Positions 26,352 to 34,322 of a stretch of 34,578 nucleotides of DNA are shown one piece after another. The notes beneath the pieces were generated by a model. That model ran no database searches and was not told where the DNA came from. It worked only from the letters and a program-made list of their open reading frames with translations. Position numbers and translations under genes: made by a program. Numbering within the stretch: position 1 is the stretch's first letter; each line of letters starts with the position of its first letter. This DNA comes from a bacterium (GTDB taxonomy: Bacteria; Armatimonadota; Chthonomonadetes; Chthonomonadales; JAMCWF01), in the NCBI GenBank assembly GCA_021842405.1, contig JAKBZR010000030.1:1-34578 (forward strand). Reading direction: 5' to 3'.

Positions 26352-26538
26352 GACCCCCACCCCATCCCTCCCCGCAAGCGGGGAGGGCGCCGACCATCTC
26401 CCCCCGCTTGCGGGGGGGATCAAGGGGGGGTGCTACATCCACGCCGTCGCCGAGAAGCTCAACCGCCGCTGGATCGCCTGCGACCTGGGCCGCTTCGCCA
26501 TCCACACTCCCCGCTTGCGGGGGGGATCAAGGGGGGGG
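26352..26538 (+). repeat. Repeat cassette A: hairpin element, methylase fragment, half element
   Basis: A GC-rich double-hairpin element (26352-26430; stems CCCTCCCCGCAAGCGGGGAG and CCCCCCGCTTGCGGGGGG, then GATCAAGGGGGGG) is followed by a piece of DNA-methylase coding sequence (26443-26507). That piece would encode VAEKLNRRWIACDLGRFAIH. A second half element (26508-26538) follows. An almost identical block (cassette B) lies inside the intein at 28581-28768. The methylase piece has no start or stop of its own. Confidence 0.88.
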
Positions 26539-26748
26539 TGACGGCAGGCAGGAGCAGTGAGGTTAGGATAATTACCCAACTTAAGCATCGCATTGAGACC
26601 GTAATCGGACTTGCTCCTAAACTGAAGGTTGAGCAGCGATAAAAGCTGGTTAGGTATATCGTTGTGATGCTCGAAACCTCATGCCTGAGCAGGAATTCCC
26701 CGCTTCTCCGCCGAATGCTACCAAGTAAAAGCGTAATAAGGACACCTT
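26539..26748 (+). other. Leader of the restriction-modification island
   Basis: About 210 bases between cassette A and the Mod start. A run of codons here (ITQLKHRIETVIGLAPKLK) may be a gene remnant, but it has no own start and no family match that I know. AAGGA at about 26737-26741 serves as the ribosome binding site for Mod. No clear promoter was found. Confidence 0.4.
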
Positions 26749-29700
26749 ATGACCGAGATTATCTGGGAAGGCAAGTACGATAAGGATGGCCGAAAGACGG
26801 CGCCGCTGCGGGTGGCGCTGCCGTTTCAAACGGTGGAAACGGTCAACGAGAGCGCCCAGGAGCGGCAGAAGTCGCTCGATTTCTTTGCCCAGGGCCGCAA
26901 CCCCGAATGGCGCAACCGCCTGATCTGGGGCGACAAAAAGTACGTGCTGCCCTCCCTGCTAACGGAGTTCGCCGGCAAGGTGAACCTGATCTATATTGAC
27001 CCGCCCTTCGCCACCGGCGCCGACTTCTCCTACACCGCCACCGTGCCCGATGCGCCCGAAACCGGCGATGGCGGCGCCAGCTTTGTAAAAGAGGCGAGCG
27101 TCATCGAGCAAAAGGCTTACCGGGATACCTGGGGCCGGGGGCTGGATTCTTATCTGGAGTGGTTTTATGAAACGGTGGTGTTTCTGCGGGAGCTACTGGC
27201 GGAAAATGGAAGCATTTATGTGCATTTAGATTATCATATTGCTCACTATGCGAAGGTAGTCATGGATGAGTTCTTTGGAGAACAACAGTTCCTGAATCAT
27301 ATAATTTGGAGTTATCGTAGATGGCCATCTGTATCACAGAACTTCCAAACAATGCATGATGACCTTTTGGTATATGCTAAAAATCGTACTTCGGAACGCA
27401 CTTTCAATATAGAATACGAACAACCGTCAGAAAGTTATATCAAACGATTCAAAGGTAAAACACAGGTTCTAGATCCGGAAACCAAGACTCGAAAAATTAC
27501 GGTTGAAGAACCGACTAAAGGCCTTCCACTCAGGGATGTATGGGACATTTCAATAATTGCCGGCTTCAAGTCGGAACGTGTAAGCTACCCTACCCAAAAA
27601 CCCGAAGCCCTGCTTGAGCGTATCATCAAAGCCTCCTCGAATGAGGGCGACCTGGTGCTGGATTGCTTCTGCGTGAGAAAAGGCACAAAGGTACTGACCC
27701 CCCTTAATCCCCCCGTAAACGGGGGGAGAACTCCCTCCCCGTTTACGGGGAGGGTTGGGGTGGGGTCCACTCCTGATATGCCAGCGGGAGCGCCTGCTGG
27801 GGCATCTCAACGGGTTGGGGAGGGGTCTACTCCTGATATGCCAGCGGGAGCGCCTGCTGGGGCATCTCAACGGGTTGGGGAGGGGTCTACTCCTGATATG
27901 CCAGCGGGAGCGCCTGCTGGGGTATCTCAACGGGTTGGGGTGGGGTCTACTCCAATTGAAAATCTTCAGCCGGGAGATTGGGTGCTCACCCACGACGGCC
28001 GATGCCATCGGGTTGTCGGCATCTATCGTCGGCGCTATCGAGGGCGAATGTTAGGCATTCGGCGCGAAGGGAGCGAGCAGCTTCTTTGGGTCACCCCCGA
28101 TCATCGCGTGCTGGCCAATCGCCGCGTGGCCGCACTGAGTGAGAAGGGAGAGTGGCCCGGAGTTCCGGATGATCATTTCAGCCATGCCCGCGGTATGCGT
28201 CGTGGAATGACCCCGCCTGAAAGACGAGTATGGGAATATCTTCGTTCCGATGGCGCAGGAGTGAAATTTCGAAGACAACATCCCATCGGCCCCTACATTG
28301 CCGACTTTTATGCGCGCCAAGCTGGGCTGGTCGTTGAGGTGGATGGAGCAATAGCGCACGAAAACGCAGAGGCGGCCAATTACGATCGGGAGCGCGACGC
28401 TTTTATGCAGGGTCTTGGCCTACAAGTGCTTCGTTTTACGGCGCGCGAGGTGATGGGGAATTGCGATAAAGTCGCAAAAACGATCGCTGCTGCTTGTCTT
28501 GAACGGGTGCTGGAAGATTTACCCGATAAGCAATGGCGATTCGCGGGCAATTTGCAGCCGGGAGACGTCGTTTACGAATTGACCCCCACCCCATCCCTCC
28601 CCGCAAGCGGGGAGGGCGCCAACCATCTCCCCCCCGCTTGCGGGGGGGATCAAGGGGGGGTGCTACATCTGCCGCCGTCGCCGAGAAGCTCAACCGCCGC
28701 TGGATCGCCTGCGACCTGGGCCGCTTCGCCATCCACACCCCCCGCTTGCGGGGGGGATCAAGGGGGGGTGCTACATCCACGCCGTCTAGTAGCCATAGAA
28801 TCCACGGAAACGGATGAAGAAGTCTACGACCTGCAAATAGAGGGATCTCACTCCTATGTGACCGATGTCTGCGCCGTCCACAACTGCGGCTCCGGCACCA
28901 CCGCCGCCGTTGCCGAAAAGCTCAACCGCCGCTGGATCACCTGCGACCTGGGCCGCTTCGCGATCCATACCACCCGCAAGCGGCTGCTCGGCATACCCAA
29001 CGTGCGCCCCTTCGTGGTGCAAAACCTCGGTAAGTACGAGCGGCAACTCTGGCAAAAGGCGGAGTTCGGCGAGCAGGCGGACGCCACCATCCTTGCCTAC
29101 CGCCGCTTCATCCTCGACCTCTATCACGCCCGCCCCCTCAACGGATACGCCTGGCTGCACGGGCTGAAGAATGGAAGGATGGTGCACGTCGGCGCGGTGG
29201 ATAGCCCGGTCAGCGCCGGCGATGTGACCAACATCGCGGTTGAGTTCCGCCGTGCGATGGGTTCCGGCGAGAGCGCCCCTTCCACTACCGGAATTGATGT
29301 ATTGGGCTGGGACTTCGCCTTTGAGCTGAACGAGGTCGCCCGCCAGCAGGCTCAGCGCGCCAAGATCGAGATGCGGTTCCTGCGCATCCCCCGCGAAGTG
29401 CTGGAGAAGCGGGCGGTGGAGCAGGGCGACATTCGCTTTTTCGAGTTGGCGGCGCTCTCGGTGGAACCCGTTATCCAGGGCCGGGCCGTCACCCTGAAGC
29501 TGACCGACTTCGTGATACCGGTGGACGACGTGCCGGCTGATGTGCAGCAGGCGATCACCCATTGGTCGCAATGGATTGACTACTGGGCGGTGGACTGGGA
29601 TAACCGGAGCGATACCTTTCACAATGAATGGCAGTCCTACCGCACCCGCAAGAGCAACGATCTGCAAAAGCAGGTTGCGCACACCTATGAAGCGCCGGGC

Positions 29701-29778
29701 GAGTACACGGTGGTGGTGAAGGTGATTGATATATTGGGCAACGACACCACCAAAGCGCTGAAAGTGAGGGTGGGGTAA
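26749..29778 (+). CDS. mod: Type III-like DNA methyltransferase (Mod) interrupted by an intein
   Basis: 1009 codons. Exteins are residues 1-307 and 713-1009; joined they give 604 residues, normal for Mod subunits. Catalytic motif IV is NLIYIDPPF (D84-PPF87). A target-recognition region follows (about 170-280), then LVLDCF|CGSGTT, the SAM-binding motif I, placed C-terminally as in beta-class enzymes. The bar marks the intein, residues 308-712. The C-terminal end (HTYEAPGEYTVVVKVIDILG) resembles a PKD-like beta-strand pair. The Res partner lies at 31761-34322. It should methylate adenine (DPPF/DPPY class) in a short asymmetric site and also steer Res cleavage. The start at 26749 has AAGGA six to seven bases upstream. 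Without splicing motif I is broken, so activity should require intein removal. Confidence 0.93.
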   Translation: MTEIIWEGKYDKDGRKTAPLRVALPFQTVETVNESAQERQKSLDFFAQGRNPEWRNRLIWGDKKYVLPSLLTEFAGKVNLIYIDPPFATGADFSYTATVPDAPETGDGGASFVKEASVIEQKAYRDTWGRGLDSYLEWFYETVVFLRELLAENGSIYVHLDYHIAHYAKVVMDEFFGEQQFLNHIIWSYRRWPSVSQNFQTMHDDLLVYAKNRTSERTFNIEYEQPSESYIKRFKGKTQVLDPETKTRKITVEEPTKGLPLRDVWDISIIAGFKSERVSYPTQKPEALLERIIKASSNEGDLVLDCFCVRKGTKVLTPLNPPVNGGRTPSPFTGRVGVGSTPDMPAGAPAGASQRVGEGSTPDMPAGAPAGASQRVGEGSTPDMPAGAPAGVSQRVGVGSTPIENLQPGDWVLTHDGRCHRVVGIYRRRYRGRMLGIRREGSEQLLWVTPDHRVLANRRVAALSEKGEWPGVPDDHFSHARGMRRGMTPPERRVWEYLRSDGAGVKFRRQHPIGPYIADFYARQAGLVVEVDGAIAHENAEAANYDRERDAFMQGLGLQVLRFTAREVMGNCDKVAKTIAAACLERVLEDLPDKQWRFAGNLQPGDVVYELTPTPSLPASGEGANHLPPACGGDQGGVLHLPPSPRSSTAAGSPATWAASPSTPPACGGDQGGVLHPRRLVAIESTETDEEVYDLQIEGSHSYVTDVCAVHNCGSGTTAAVAEKLNRRWITCDLGRFAIHTTRKRLLGIPNVRPFVVQNLGKYERQLWQKAEFGEQADATILAYRRFILDLYHARPLNGYAWLHGLKNGRMVHVGAVDSPVSAGDVTNIAVEFRRAMGSGESAPSTTGIDVLGWDFAFELNEVARQQAQRAKIEMRFLRIPREVLEKRAVEQGDIRFFELAALSVEPVIQGRAVTLKLTDFVIPVDDVPADVQQAITHWSQWIDYWAVDWDNRSDTFHNEWQSYRTRKSNDLQKQVAHTYEAPGEYTVVVKVIDILGNDTTKALKVRVG
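27210..27590 (+). other. AT-rich target-recognition segment of Mod
   Basis: This part of Mod is clearly richer in A/T and in AT-ending codons than the sequence on both sides, while motif IV before and motif I after are GC-rich. It encodes the region between the catalytic motifs (NHIIWSYRRWPSVSQNFQT onward), where target recognition lies in this class. This looks like a domain swapped in by recombination. Confidence 0.6.
27698..27767 (-). repeat. Hairpin element inserted in intein loop, inverted orientation
   Basis: This is the reverse complement of the element at 26352-26430 with TAAA/TTTA in place of CAAG/CTTG in the stem centres: CCCCCCGTAAACGGGGGG and CCCTCCCCGTTTACGGGG. It sits in frame between the first strand of the intein (KVLTP) and PIENLQPGD, where a turn of a few residues is normal. 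Confidence 0.85.
27771..27950 (+). repeat. Three tandem 60-bp repeats inside the intein
   Basis: Units at 27771-27830, 27831-27890 and 27891-27950; the first two are identical and the third has two substitutions. Each contains an imperfect palindrome (ATGCCAGCGG...TGGGGCAT) and keeps the frame, encoding a 20-residue unit built on STPDMPAGAPAGASQRVGEG. Because the length is a multiple of three, copy-number change would not break Mod. Confidence 0.95.
28581..28768 (+). repeat. Repeat cassette B inside the intein
   Basis: Nearly identical to cassette A (26352-26538): full hairpin element 28581-28660, methylase fragment 28671-28736, half element 28737-28768. It lies in frame, but the methylase fragment is read in a different phase here (SSTAAGSPATWAASPSTP). 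It occupies a loop between GDVVYEL and block F. Confidence 0.9.
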
Positions 29779-31760: not shown

Positions 31761-34322
31761 ATGGCACGCCTGAAATCAAAACCCACGAACCCCGATCAGT
31801 CAGACCTTTTTAAGGTCAAAACCAACACCGCCCCTTGCGTACCCGCCATTCGCCTGGCCGTCAATCAATGGCGGGAGGGCAGGTACAAGGGCGTCACCGA
31901 TACCACCCGCCTGCTTCTCAACCACTGGTTTTATACCGATCACCGCCTACCGAATGGACGCCGGTTTGAATATCACACCTCCCAGCGCGAGGCCATTGAA
32001 ACCCTGATCTACCTTTACGAAGTCGTGAAGGTTCGGCGCCAGAAAGAGTTGTTGGAAAGCTATGCCGATCGCCCCGATCTGCGCCTGCTGCAATACGATG
32101 ATTTCGCCCGCTACTGCATTAAGATGGCCACCGGCAGCGGCAAAACGAAAGTGATGGCGTTGGCTATCGCCTGGCAGTACTTTAACGCGGCGGCGGGCAG
32201 GCCGGATTACGCGAAGACCTTCCTGATCCTGGCGCCCAACGTCATCGTATTCGAGCGGCTCCGAAGCGATTTCGAGGGCGGCCGCATCTTTAAGTCCGAC
32301 CCGGTGATCCCCCAAGAGCTTCAGGTCTACTGGGACTTCGATTGCTACATGCGCGGAGAGGGCGAGCGATCCGGCTCAATCGGCGCCCTCTACCTGACCA
32401 ACATCCAGCAGCTCCACGAGCGAAACGGCGCCGCCGATGAAGAGGAGCCGGAGGAGATGACCGCCGTTTTAGGCCCCAAGCCGCCCGCCCAGCCGGTTGA
32501 GGTGGAGGATTTCGATAAGCGGATTGCCGCCCGCAACGGCCCCTGCCTGGTGATCAATGACGAGGCCCACCACACCCACGACGAGAAGCTGAAGTGGAAC
32601 GAGTTTATCCGCAATCTGAACGGCTCGCTGGACGCCGGCTCGGTCATTCAGTTGGACTTCACCGCCACGCCCCGCCATAGCAAAGGGGCGCTCTTTACCT
32701 GGACGGTCTACGACTACCCGCTCAAGCAGGCCATCATAGACAACATCGTAAAGCGCCCGATGAAGGGAATCACGACCGGCATACGGGAGCGACCCTCTGA
32801 TTATGCAAGCGTCAAGTATCAGGCGTATTTGACCGCCGGGGTGGAGCGTTGGCGGGAGTATCGGCAGCAGCTTGCCCGGCTCAAGAAAAGGCCGATCCTG
32901 TTTGTGATGATGAACGACACCGCCGAGGCGGATGACGTGGGCGACTACCTGCGCACCAAGTACCCCGATGAGTTCGGCGACGATAAGCTGCTCGTCATTC
33001 ACACCGATAATACCGGAAACGTTTCCAAGAAAGACGTGGAGAAGGCCAGAGAAGTTGCGCGGAAGGTGGATGAGGCCGAAAGTCCGGTCAACGCCATCGT
33101 CAGCGTGCTGATGCTGCGGGAGGGCTGGGACGTGCAGAATGTCACCGTGATTGTCGGGCTGCGGCCCTACTCCTCAAAGGCGAACATCCTGCCGGAGCAG
33201 ACGATCGGTCGCGGCCTGCGCCTGATGTTCCGTGATATGGGTCTCGGTTATGTAGAGCGGGTGGACGTGATCGGCAACCGGAAGTTTATCGAGTTTGTGG
33301 AGCAGTTGGAGCGGGAGGAGGAGCTTCAGCTTGAGACCTTCGAGGTCGGCAAAGACAAGCTGGAGATCGTCACGATTATGCCCGACCCGGAAAAGCGGGA
33401 TAAAGATATTGCAATACCGGTTCTCAGCCCCATTTTGGCTCGAAAGAAGACGCTGGCCGAGGTAATCGCAGGCTTGGAGCTTCCGGCCTTGGAGCATCCT
33501 CTGCCGAAGAAAGAGGGCGACCTGGCCGCCCAGCAGTTCCATTACGAGGGATACGATATTATCACGCTTCAGAAGCAGATCGAGCGCGATTACACGATCC
33601 CGGAGCCGCAAACGGCGCAGGAGGTGATCTCTTACCTGGCGAAGCGGATCGCCCAGGACGTGAAGCTGCCCTCTCAATTTGCGGCGCTGGTTCCCAAGGT
33701 GAGGGAGTTTCTGGAAGCCAAAGCCTTCGGGGAGCCGGTTTCGCTGGATAGCCCGGACATGATCAAGGCGATCTCCAGTAACGTGGCGCGGTATGTCACG
33801 GTGAAGACCTTCGCTTCGGCGCTTCGGCCATTGGTGGTGGATGAGCTGACGCCTCAACTGGTGAGCGAGGGCCGTTGCCTATCGGAGACGCCGCCGTTTC
33901 CCTTCTCGCGTCCAACCCTCAAAGCAGTTAAGACCGTGTTTAATTTGGTCGCTTGCGATAACGACTTCGAGCGGCGGTTCGCTCAATTCTTGGAGCGATC
34001 ACCCGAAGTGGAGGCGTTCGCCAAGCTGCCCTCGCAGTTTAACTTTGCAATTGAGTACACCGATGCGGCTGCCAACCTGCGCTACTACTGGCCGGACTTT
34101 GTGGCGGTACTATCAGACGGCACACGCTTCCTGCTGGAAACGAAGGGTCGTGAGGATATAGACGTGACGCATAAAGACCGGGCGGCGCAGATATGGTGTG
34201 AGAACGCCACGCTACTGACCGGAACCGATTGGCGTTATCTGAAGGTGCCGCAGTCGGAGTTCGAGAATCTGCAGCCGGAGGGGTTTGAGGAGTTGACGGT
34301 GATGAGGGTGAGTAATCGGTAG
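31761..34322 (+). CDS. res: Type III-like restriction enzyme Res subunit (SF2 helicase-nuclease)
   Basis: 853 residues. SF2 helicase motifs: I at MATGSGKT (122-129), II at NDEAHH (D267-H270), III at FTATP (300-304), and VI at QTIGRGLRL. A C-terminal PD-(D/E)XK nuclease is visible as YWPDFVAVLSDGTRFLLETKG with D779, E793 and K795. This is the standard Res architecture: ATP-driven translocation or sliding after recognition by Mod, then cleavage. It starts 33 bases after the ORF6N gene with GGGAAGG close to the ATG. The complete motifs suggest an active enzyme. It pairs with the intein-bearing Mod; the three small genes in between are accessory. Confidence 0.93.
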   Translation: MARLKSKPTNPDQSDLFKVKTNTAPCVPAIRLAVNQWREGRYKGVTDTTRLLLNHWFYTDHRLPNGRRFEYHTSQREAIETLIYLYEVVKVRRQKELLESYADRPDLRLLQYDDFARYCIKMATGSGKTKVMALAIAWQYFNAAAGRPDYAKTFLILAPNVIVFERLRSDFEGGRIFKSDPVIPQELQVYWDFDCYMRGEGERSGSIGALYLTNIQQLHERNGAADEEEPEEMTAVLGPKPPAQPVEVEDFDKRIAARNGPCLVINDEAHHTHDEKLKWNEFIRNLNGSLDAGSVIQLDFTATPRHSKGALFTWTVYDYPLKQAIIDNIVKRPMKGITTGIRERPSDYASVKYQAYLTAGVERWREYRQQLARLKKRPILFVMMNDTAEADDVGDYLRTKYPDEFGDDKLLVIHTDNTGNVSKKDVEKAREVARKVDEAESPVNAIVSVLMLREGWDVQNVTVIVGLRPYSSKANILPEQTIGRGLRLMFRDMGLGYVERVDVIGNRKFIEFVEQLEREEELQLETFEVGKDKLEIVTIMPDPEKRDKDIAIPVLSPILARKKTLAEVIAGLELPALEHPLPKKEGDLAAQQFHYEGYDIITLQKQIERDYTIPEPQTAQEVISYLAKRIAQDVKLPSQFAALVPKVREFLEAKAFGEPVSLDSPDMIKAISSNVARYVTVKTFASALRPLVVDELTPQLVSEGRCLSETPPFPFSRPTLKAVKTVFNLVACDNDFERRFAQFLERSPEVEAFAKLPSQFNFAIEYTDAAANLRYYWPDFVAVLSDGTRFLLETKGREDIDVTHKDRAAQIWCENATLLTGTDWRYLKVPQSEFENLQPEGFEELTVMRVSNR

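Follow-up and report, generated by a model that had tools for sequence, protein, structure and literature searches.

A Type III Mod methylase gene in a genome of the Armatimonadota (3.5 Mb, 174 contigs) is interrupted by a long in-frame insert, which raises two questions: can this insert leave the protein by splicing, and what does the nuclease domain nested in it do? The window analysed here is the whole contig C48 with a length of 34,578 bp. An original prediction had placed an intein at positions 27670-28884, in motif I of a restriction-modification methylase. The translation and an alignment of 15 family inteins (A3), which included decayed members, showed that these coordinates were exact and that all splicing and nuclease residues named at that time were present (Table 1). 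The codon of Cys308 begins at position 27670 and that of Asn712 ends at 28884, the insertion lying in frame between LDCF and CGSGTT, directly ahead of the Cys of motif I. Removal of the insert in silico left 604 residues (1009-405) and a frame reading ...LVLDCF-CGSGTTAAVAEKL..., in which motif I is uninterrupted.

Table 1. Features of the interrupted mod gene and its surroundings (positions refer to the window)
Feature	Position	Strand	Size or basis
Upstream composite repeat: palindromes and copy of captured mod fragment	26352..26540	.	repeat analysis, comparison
Type III Mod methylase ORF, intein-interrupted	26749..29778	+	1009 aa
N-extein, residues 1-307, C-terminal end ...LVLDCF	26749..27669	+	PF01555 at 78-308
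Intein, 405 residues, Cys1 ... His-Asn	27670..28884	+	translation, alignment A3, HMM
Intein block A, CVRKGTKVLTP	27670..27702	+	alignment; first ten residues pLDDT 96
Palindrome pair TCCCCCCG-TAAA-CGGGGGGA and CCCTCCCCG-TTTA-CGGGGAGGG, linker after block A	27698..27765	.	repeat analysis
Three tandem 60-bp in-frame repeats, linker	27752..27953	.	repeat analysis
Middle of Hint, with block B (T449/H452, 28093-28104)	27955..28140	+	alignment, Hint_2
DUF559/Vsr-like nuclease; E491 (28219), D519 (28303), E530 (28336), D532 (28342)	28180..28494	+	HMM, alignment, Foldseek
Second palindrome-rich insert, C-terminal Hint part, ~61 codons	28581..28770	.	absent from other 14 aligned inteins
Intein blocks F and G, EEVYDLQIEGSHSYVTDVCAVHN	28816..28884	+	HMM, alignment
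C-extein, residues 713-1009, begins CGSGTT (motif I)	28885..29778	+	ORF translation, HMM
Type III Res subunit (ResIII helicase + RE_endonuc)	31761..34322	+	ORF list, HMM

The insert possesses blocks A, B (TxxH), F and G, an N-terminal Cys, the terminal His-Asn and a +1 Cys. Residues C308, T449, H452, H711, N712 and C713 correspond to intein positions 1, 142, 145, 404, 405 and 406 of alignment A3, in which T142 and H145 were invariant across all 15 rows and H404 and C406 nearly invariant, while Asn405 was changed to Val in the relic L010. The HMM search for Hint and DUF559 that had been suggested beforehand detected both. Besides DUF559 (see below), the intein C-terminus model TIGR01443 exceeded its cut-off of 15.6 with 22.4 bits. 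Hint_2 scored 27.9 in the scan of the whole ORF, slightly below the cut-off of 28.4, and passed with 30.8 when the intein alone was scanned. Intein_splicing stayed under the Pfam cut-off of 35.8 with both the whole ORF (20.8) and the intein alone (23.3). Matches at E<=0.01 were obtained with DUF559 in 15, with Intein_splicing in 12 and with Hint_2 in 10 of the 15 members of A3. The AlphaFold model of the intein (mean pLDDT 73.4, pTM 0.62) was confident at the Hint ends (pLDDT >90) and in the DUF559 domain. By Foldseek, the predicted model matched intein splicing domains with E-values from ~0.002 and a probability near 1, its splicing part reaching a TMt of up to 0.69 with the Mtu RecA intein. 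We consider it highly probable that the insert is a cis-splicing Hint-type intein with a DUF559/Vsr-like homing nuclease inside a Type III Mod, splicing and homing both being predicted activities.

The host gene revealed the properties of a Type III mod gene. It encodes an N6 methylase (PF01555, N6_N4_Mtase, E=1.4e-42 in the HMM scan) with an IDPPF motif ahead of CGSGTT, and a ResIII helicase-nuclease gene follows, separated from it by a 375-aa ORF without clear family and an ORF6N gene. Relatives of Res were present at other intein-bearing mod loci, too. A paralogous Mod of the same genome (contig C12) reads ADFFCGSGTT and contains no intein; likewise without intein is the nearest Mod that we found (LDCFIGSGTT), which is 78% identical over residues 282-604 of the joined protein. 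At the C-terminus of the window Mod (29656-29772, residues 970-1008), PKD domain matches under their cut-offs were obtained, and a similar tail occurs in the Mods of L013 and L015.

Judging from conserved residues, homology and fold, the intein would excise itself after translation between Phe307 and Cys713 and join ...LDCF-CGSGTT..., by which the AdoMet-binding motif of the Mod would be restored. With efficient splicing, the restriction-modification (R-M) function should be unaffected. The original prediction had foreseen a self-restriction problem, as Res is made while Mod is still unspliced. This concern was not supported, since a Type III Res depends on Mod: as described in PMC3874151, expression of Mod raises the amount of Res, Mod has been proposed to stabilise Res and to shield it from proteolysis, and in the favoured model the site is bound by Mod, which directs Res there. 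Because of this role of Mod, a Mod that stays unspliced should reduce modification as well as restriction, and slow splicing would let both fall as Res needs Mod. An alternative is that the intein is dead or barely active, its DUF559 domain and repeats being passengers, and that Mod is inactivated and the R-M system a pseudogene. The model contains long disordered linkers (pLDDT <50 in 317-363 and most of 19-86, the repeat stretches), many relatives are broken, and the second insert in the C-terminal Hint part, missing from the other 14 aligned inteins, could slow down splicing. Against a dead intein stand the open frame of 1009 codons with its splicing and nuclease residues kept, and the frames of the C-extein and of Res, both of which are open in the window. 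Thus, we regard inactivity as improbable.

The identity of the nested nuclease was supported by several lines of evidence. PF04480 (DUF559) matched residues 478-582 with E=1.7e-26 and 92.7 bits (cut-off 20.6). E491, D519, E530 and D532 are intein positions 184, 212, 223 and 225 in alignment A3; the first three were invariant in 15/15 rows and D225 nearly so (Asn in L029). Foldseek placed 3hrl (TMt 0.88 with the nuclease model) and I-Bth0305I (TMt 0.80-0.83) at the top as the only matches with E <0.001, and a profile search found the same kinds of protein, among them I-Bth0305I (3r3p, E=4.2e-4). By its fold and its sequence relation to the catalytic domain of I-Bth0305I, the domain belongs to the EDxHD/Vsr-like nucleases, the conservation of residues having been compared within the intein family. 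As had been supposed, a DUF559/Vsr-like domain thus stands in place of LAGLIDADG.

Full-length (bifunctional) inteins usually carry LAGLIDADG or HNH nucleases. The intein studied here resembles them in the Hint blocks A, B, F and G, the Cys nucleophiles, a nuclease after block B and the insertion in a catalytic motif, but differs by the type of nuclease and by palindromic repeats after block A. It shares its nuclease fold, and the use of this fold by selfish splicing elements, with I-Bth0305I (PDB 3r3p) and with the 'fractured' genes in which, as reportedly noted by Dassa et al. in 2009, Vsr-like nucleases lie between the halves of split inteins. There, however, the domain belongs to a group I intron or a free gene between the halves, whereas here it is nested in a single contiguous intein that interrupts a cellular R-M gene. 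The family would add Type III mod to the classes of host genes and places a Vsr-like nuclease inside contiguous inteins. A review (PMC3943268) counts EDxHD as one of six group I homing nuclease families, and the nucleases of inteins are described as sharing one conserved site (PMC6801210). PMC9403480 names a DUF559-containing gene of the EDxHD family in two Thermosynechococcus strains in its section on intein-containing genes, with a wording that leaves its placement inside an intein undecided. Among the matches listed for the open-licence literature, we found no report of such a DUF559 intein, of a link between DUF559 and palindromes or of an intein in a Type III Mod.

The DUF559 domain probably acts as a Vsr-like homing nuclease, which would cleave empty mod alleles at the codons of motif I, and repair of the cut allele would copy the intein in. 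As these codons are conserved between Mods, such a target would explain crossing between Mod subfamilies. Alternatively, DUF559 might be a repair-type (Vsr-like) or structural domain that has been kept for another reason and does not serve homing. In PMC12907096, VsrA of Caulobacter, a DUF559 protein, is read as a putative mismatch-repair nuclease and reported to be responsible for the SOS response in cells without a cytosine methylase. VsrA and 3hrl of N. gonorrhoeae are free-standing members of the same domain family, but they lack Hint, and what has been reported for VsrA is damage to the DNA of a methylase mutant rather than homing. The intein domain, on the other hand, follows Hint block B in the sequence order, where intein nucleases lie, it matches the fold of the homing nuclease I-Bth0305I, and the intein occurs in divergent mods. 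We therefore judge a mere repair or structural role unlikely and retain the homing nuclease.

The original prediction had suggested a search for DUF559 within Hint domains, and it had missed how widespread the family is. We searched 291 genomes of the phylum and scanned species genomes (best 80 of 490), duplicates being merged by hand. This yielded at least 23 loci of the Hint+DUF559 family including the window, plus one different intein (L042). The loci belong to about seven phyla (Armatimonadota, Bacteroidetes, Nitrospira, Chloroflexi, Desulfuromonadales, Calditrichaeota and Hydrogenedentota), single assignments of which may be wrong because most of the loci stem from metagenome bins. Both Mod junctions were situated within one open frame at nine of the 23 loci (window, L027, L029, L023, L030, L031, L033, L034 and L036). 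Five of the nine are fully readable, since the frames of L030 and L034 close 26 and 70 residues past the intein and those of L029 and L036 are still open where their contigs end. Other loci were interrupted by stops or frame changes (L011, L015, L009/L024, L025), truncated by contig ends (L013, L016, L032) or apparent relics without a readable Mod (L010, L017, L026, L035, L037, L039); G033:C62 showed an internal stop. At every readable junction, the intein resides directly ahead of the Cys of CG(S/C)G. Empty sites, at which LDCF and CGSGTT adjoin each other, were identified in five relatives (L111, L112, L113, L117 and L123, the last one with CGSGTS). Thus, occupied and empty alleles exist at the same codon, as is characteristic of an intein. 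Since the same intein was found at the same Mod codon in other, independently assembled genomes, an assembly chimera, which had been named as a possible objection, is very unlikely.

The many broken relatives are expected of a decaying selfish element, but they also mean that function has often been lost. One could also imagine the intein as a regulatory switch, splicing answering to the state of the cell and controlling the R-M system. Its location in the catalytic motif makes Mod activity dependent on splicing; the distribution and the pattern of decay, however, fit a selfish element, and we give a switch hardly any credence. For the selfish element, the family with its occupied, empty and decayed alleles offers material for testing homing by Vsr-like nucleases. 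In viral contigs, a pattern derived from the window intein had nine matches, none of which was confirmed. Phages gave two matches, which covered the DUF559 part, when the L023 intein was the query. None of 36 plasmid records covered 80% of the window intein, coverage among the ten matches listed being 24-41%. No empty site was found for the Azospirillum DUF559 loci, for which all seven records covering >=80% of the query covered 99-100%.

To the Bacteroidetes locus L023, the window intein is 52% identical over 243 residues, while the exteins share 30% over 376. The intein was closer than the extein in comparisons with seven of eight relatives, the exception being L029, whose extein match comprises just 84 residues. 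Of seven comparisons starting from L027, five had the extein as the closer part (e.g., 64 vs 57% with L029 and 69 vs 53% with L033) and two the intein (L030, L031); much of the spread among these LDPT-type Mods therefore looks vertical. The window genome harbors a second mod relic (L004 1423-1598, G000:C81:4913-5088) that carries the start of the window intein, in which 96 of 103 nt are identical as opposed to 58 of 78 in the adjoining extein. The likeness stops directly after the palindrome pair. Because of this relic and the closer relationship of the window intein than of its Mod to most relatives, we infer that the intein moves horizontally. Along with the occupied, empty and decayed alleles, these data bear out the earlier idea of a selfish element in a defence methylase.

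It had escaped the original prediction that the N-terminal linker and the second, C-terminal insert of the intein consist of high-copy palindromic repeats of the kind flanking free DUF559 genes. The loops of the linker palindrome pair are complementary to each other. Despite consisting of repeats, the linkers do not break the reading frame. The window genome contains 257 copies of CCCTCCCC-N4-8-GGGGAGGG, the highest number among the 291 genomes; the reversed pattern, used as a control, gave no copy. Of 19 family inteins tested, 17 held palindromes with a TCCCC stem (all but L015 and L035), as did L042; for this test, the stretches of decayed loci were set by eye and L017, L025, L032 and G033:C62 were left out. 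At nine loci, 24 palindromes were counted in 9.2 kb of intein and 14 in 97 kb of surrounding DNA, an 18-fold difference in density. A captured fragment of mod (~70 nt, 28671-28742) lies between palindromes inside the intein and is 92% identical over 72 nt to the start of the C-extein at 28903-28974. A second copy (26431-26511), again between palindromes, precedes the mod ORF by ~240 bp. Template switching is suggested by the position of the joint, where the sequence of mod itself, CCCGCAAGCGG, resembles the centre of the palindrome.

The ORF that hosts the intein L042, in a Pyrinomonadaceae bin, is flavin monooxygenase-like to judge by its sequence. The DUF559 domain of L042 is situated between two CCCTCCCC palindromes within the intein. 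In the DUF559 tree, this domain forms a long branch of its own, and a supported branch (98/88) separates it from the Mod inteins. The intein copies were not recovered as one clade. A single origin of the intein DUF559 domains was not demonstrable, as the tree leaves the intein domains other than that of L042 unresolved among free ones. Inteins may thus have captured DUF559-palindrome units at least twice, once in the Mod intein family and once in L042.

Free DUF559 genes were inspected for palindromes at a distance of <=250 bp. Out of 53 usable loci (of 61 non-intein loci) in a discovery set, 36 had a palindrome on either side and 23 on both sides, compared with 189 and 2 of 8211 random intervals. 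Since the motif had been chosen after some of these loci were seen, thresholds for new loci were stated in advance (>40% either, >20% both). A first validation batch, from which two intein-type loci (L146, L149) and the weakly matching L150-L155 were left out and to which L018 and L020-L022 were added in departure from the prior plan, gave 5/19 and 2/19. A second batch comprised other DUF559 copies of 20 genomes already examined; 17 of 30 were dropped (already used or at contig edges), and the 13 usable ones gave 5/13 and 3/13. The pooled values (10/32 either, 5/32 both) missed the thresholds, with a clear excess over the controls (6/2174 and 0/2174). Because many discovery loci of sphingomonads and comamonads are orthologous, we recounted by synteny cluster. 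For 83 usable loci in 65 clusters, the expected numbers were 30.5 (either side) and 17.2 (both sides), while 5375 random intervals gave 109 and 2. In a stricter control, the flanks of the remaining genes at the discovery loci, neighbours of DUF559 itself included, gave 71/429 and 2/429. Compared to these, two-sided flanking was significant (17/65 vs 2/429, p=2e-14; validation clusters alone 5/29, p=1e-5), whereas one-sided flanking of the validation clusters was not (9/29 vs 71/429, p=0.07).

Repeats of >=14 nt from flank to flank were found at 31 of 55 loci once L053, an artefact produced by runs of N, was no longer counted. The other DUF559 gene of the window genome (C11:22469-22813) is bracketed by inverted palindrome copies at distances of 20 and 33 bp from its domain match. 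Palindromes were near all of four DUF559 plasmid loci picked from the plasmid records (two representing the same Azospirillum locus), one having an array of twelve. DUF559 occurred in 29 of 36 genomes with >=5 palindromes and in 136 of 255 with fewer (p=0.002, a hand tally that ignores kinship). Many DUF559 genomes contain few or no copies of the CCCTCCCC-N4-8-GGGGAGGG form.

The link between DUF559 and the palindromes is correlational. As the intein carries REP-like palindromes of the kind found beside many free DUF559 genes, its nuclease was probably acquired from, or has a common ancestry with, DUF559-palindrome units. Tentatively, we propose that DUF559 nucleases are the enzymatic partner of pan-bacterial GC-rich palindromes (CCCTCCCC-loop-GGGGAGGG, with a genome-specific loop): they might recognise or cut the palindrome, DUF559 genes would home into or between palindromes, and inteins that captured such units would be composite selfish elements made up of a splicing part, a homing nuclease and the target palindrome. 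It is a serious possibility, too, that the palindromes are incidental, i.e. high-copy REP-like repeats unrelated to DUF559 that enter any tolerated loop or intergenic gap. Their abundance in the window genome, similar translated repeats in non-intein parts of some Mod genes, seven of the 36 repeat-rich genomes in which no DUF559 was found, the missed validation thresholds and the insignificant one-sided flanking agree with incidental repeats; their presence in nearly all tested family inteins, their density there and the two-sided flanking of the clusters argue against this reading. If causal, the partnership of DUF559 and palindromes would provide a job for a common domain of 'unknown function' and an enzyme for widespread bacterial repeats. 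It is possibly new as a kind. REP/RAYT elements (REPtrons) likewise combine high-copy palindromes with an enzyme gene nearby, but their partner is a Y1 transposase, whereas here a Vsr-like nuclease is proposed and mobilisation is putative. Like the window intein, free DUF559 genes often adjoin CCCTCCCC-type palindromes (as counted at loci other than those of 3hrl and VsrA).

Some individual loci were conspicuous. On plasmid pGJ3-1 of Photobacterium sp. GJ3 (L231 2364-3936), the array of twelve palindromes begins 70 bp past the DUF559 match. Two Sphingobium loci differ by the presence (L056 5851-6700) and absence (L067 1521-2060) of DUF559 at the same intergenic site, beside an identical palindrome, which fits a gain of DUF559 beside the palindrome or a loss. 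Finally, DUF559 was observed between in-frame palindromic repeats without Hint, in a 2024-aa ORF that is DNA methylase-like by eye (L101 6001-6573) and in a frame beginning like murD (L019 56-595).
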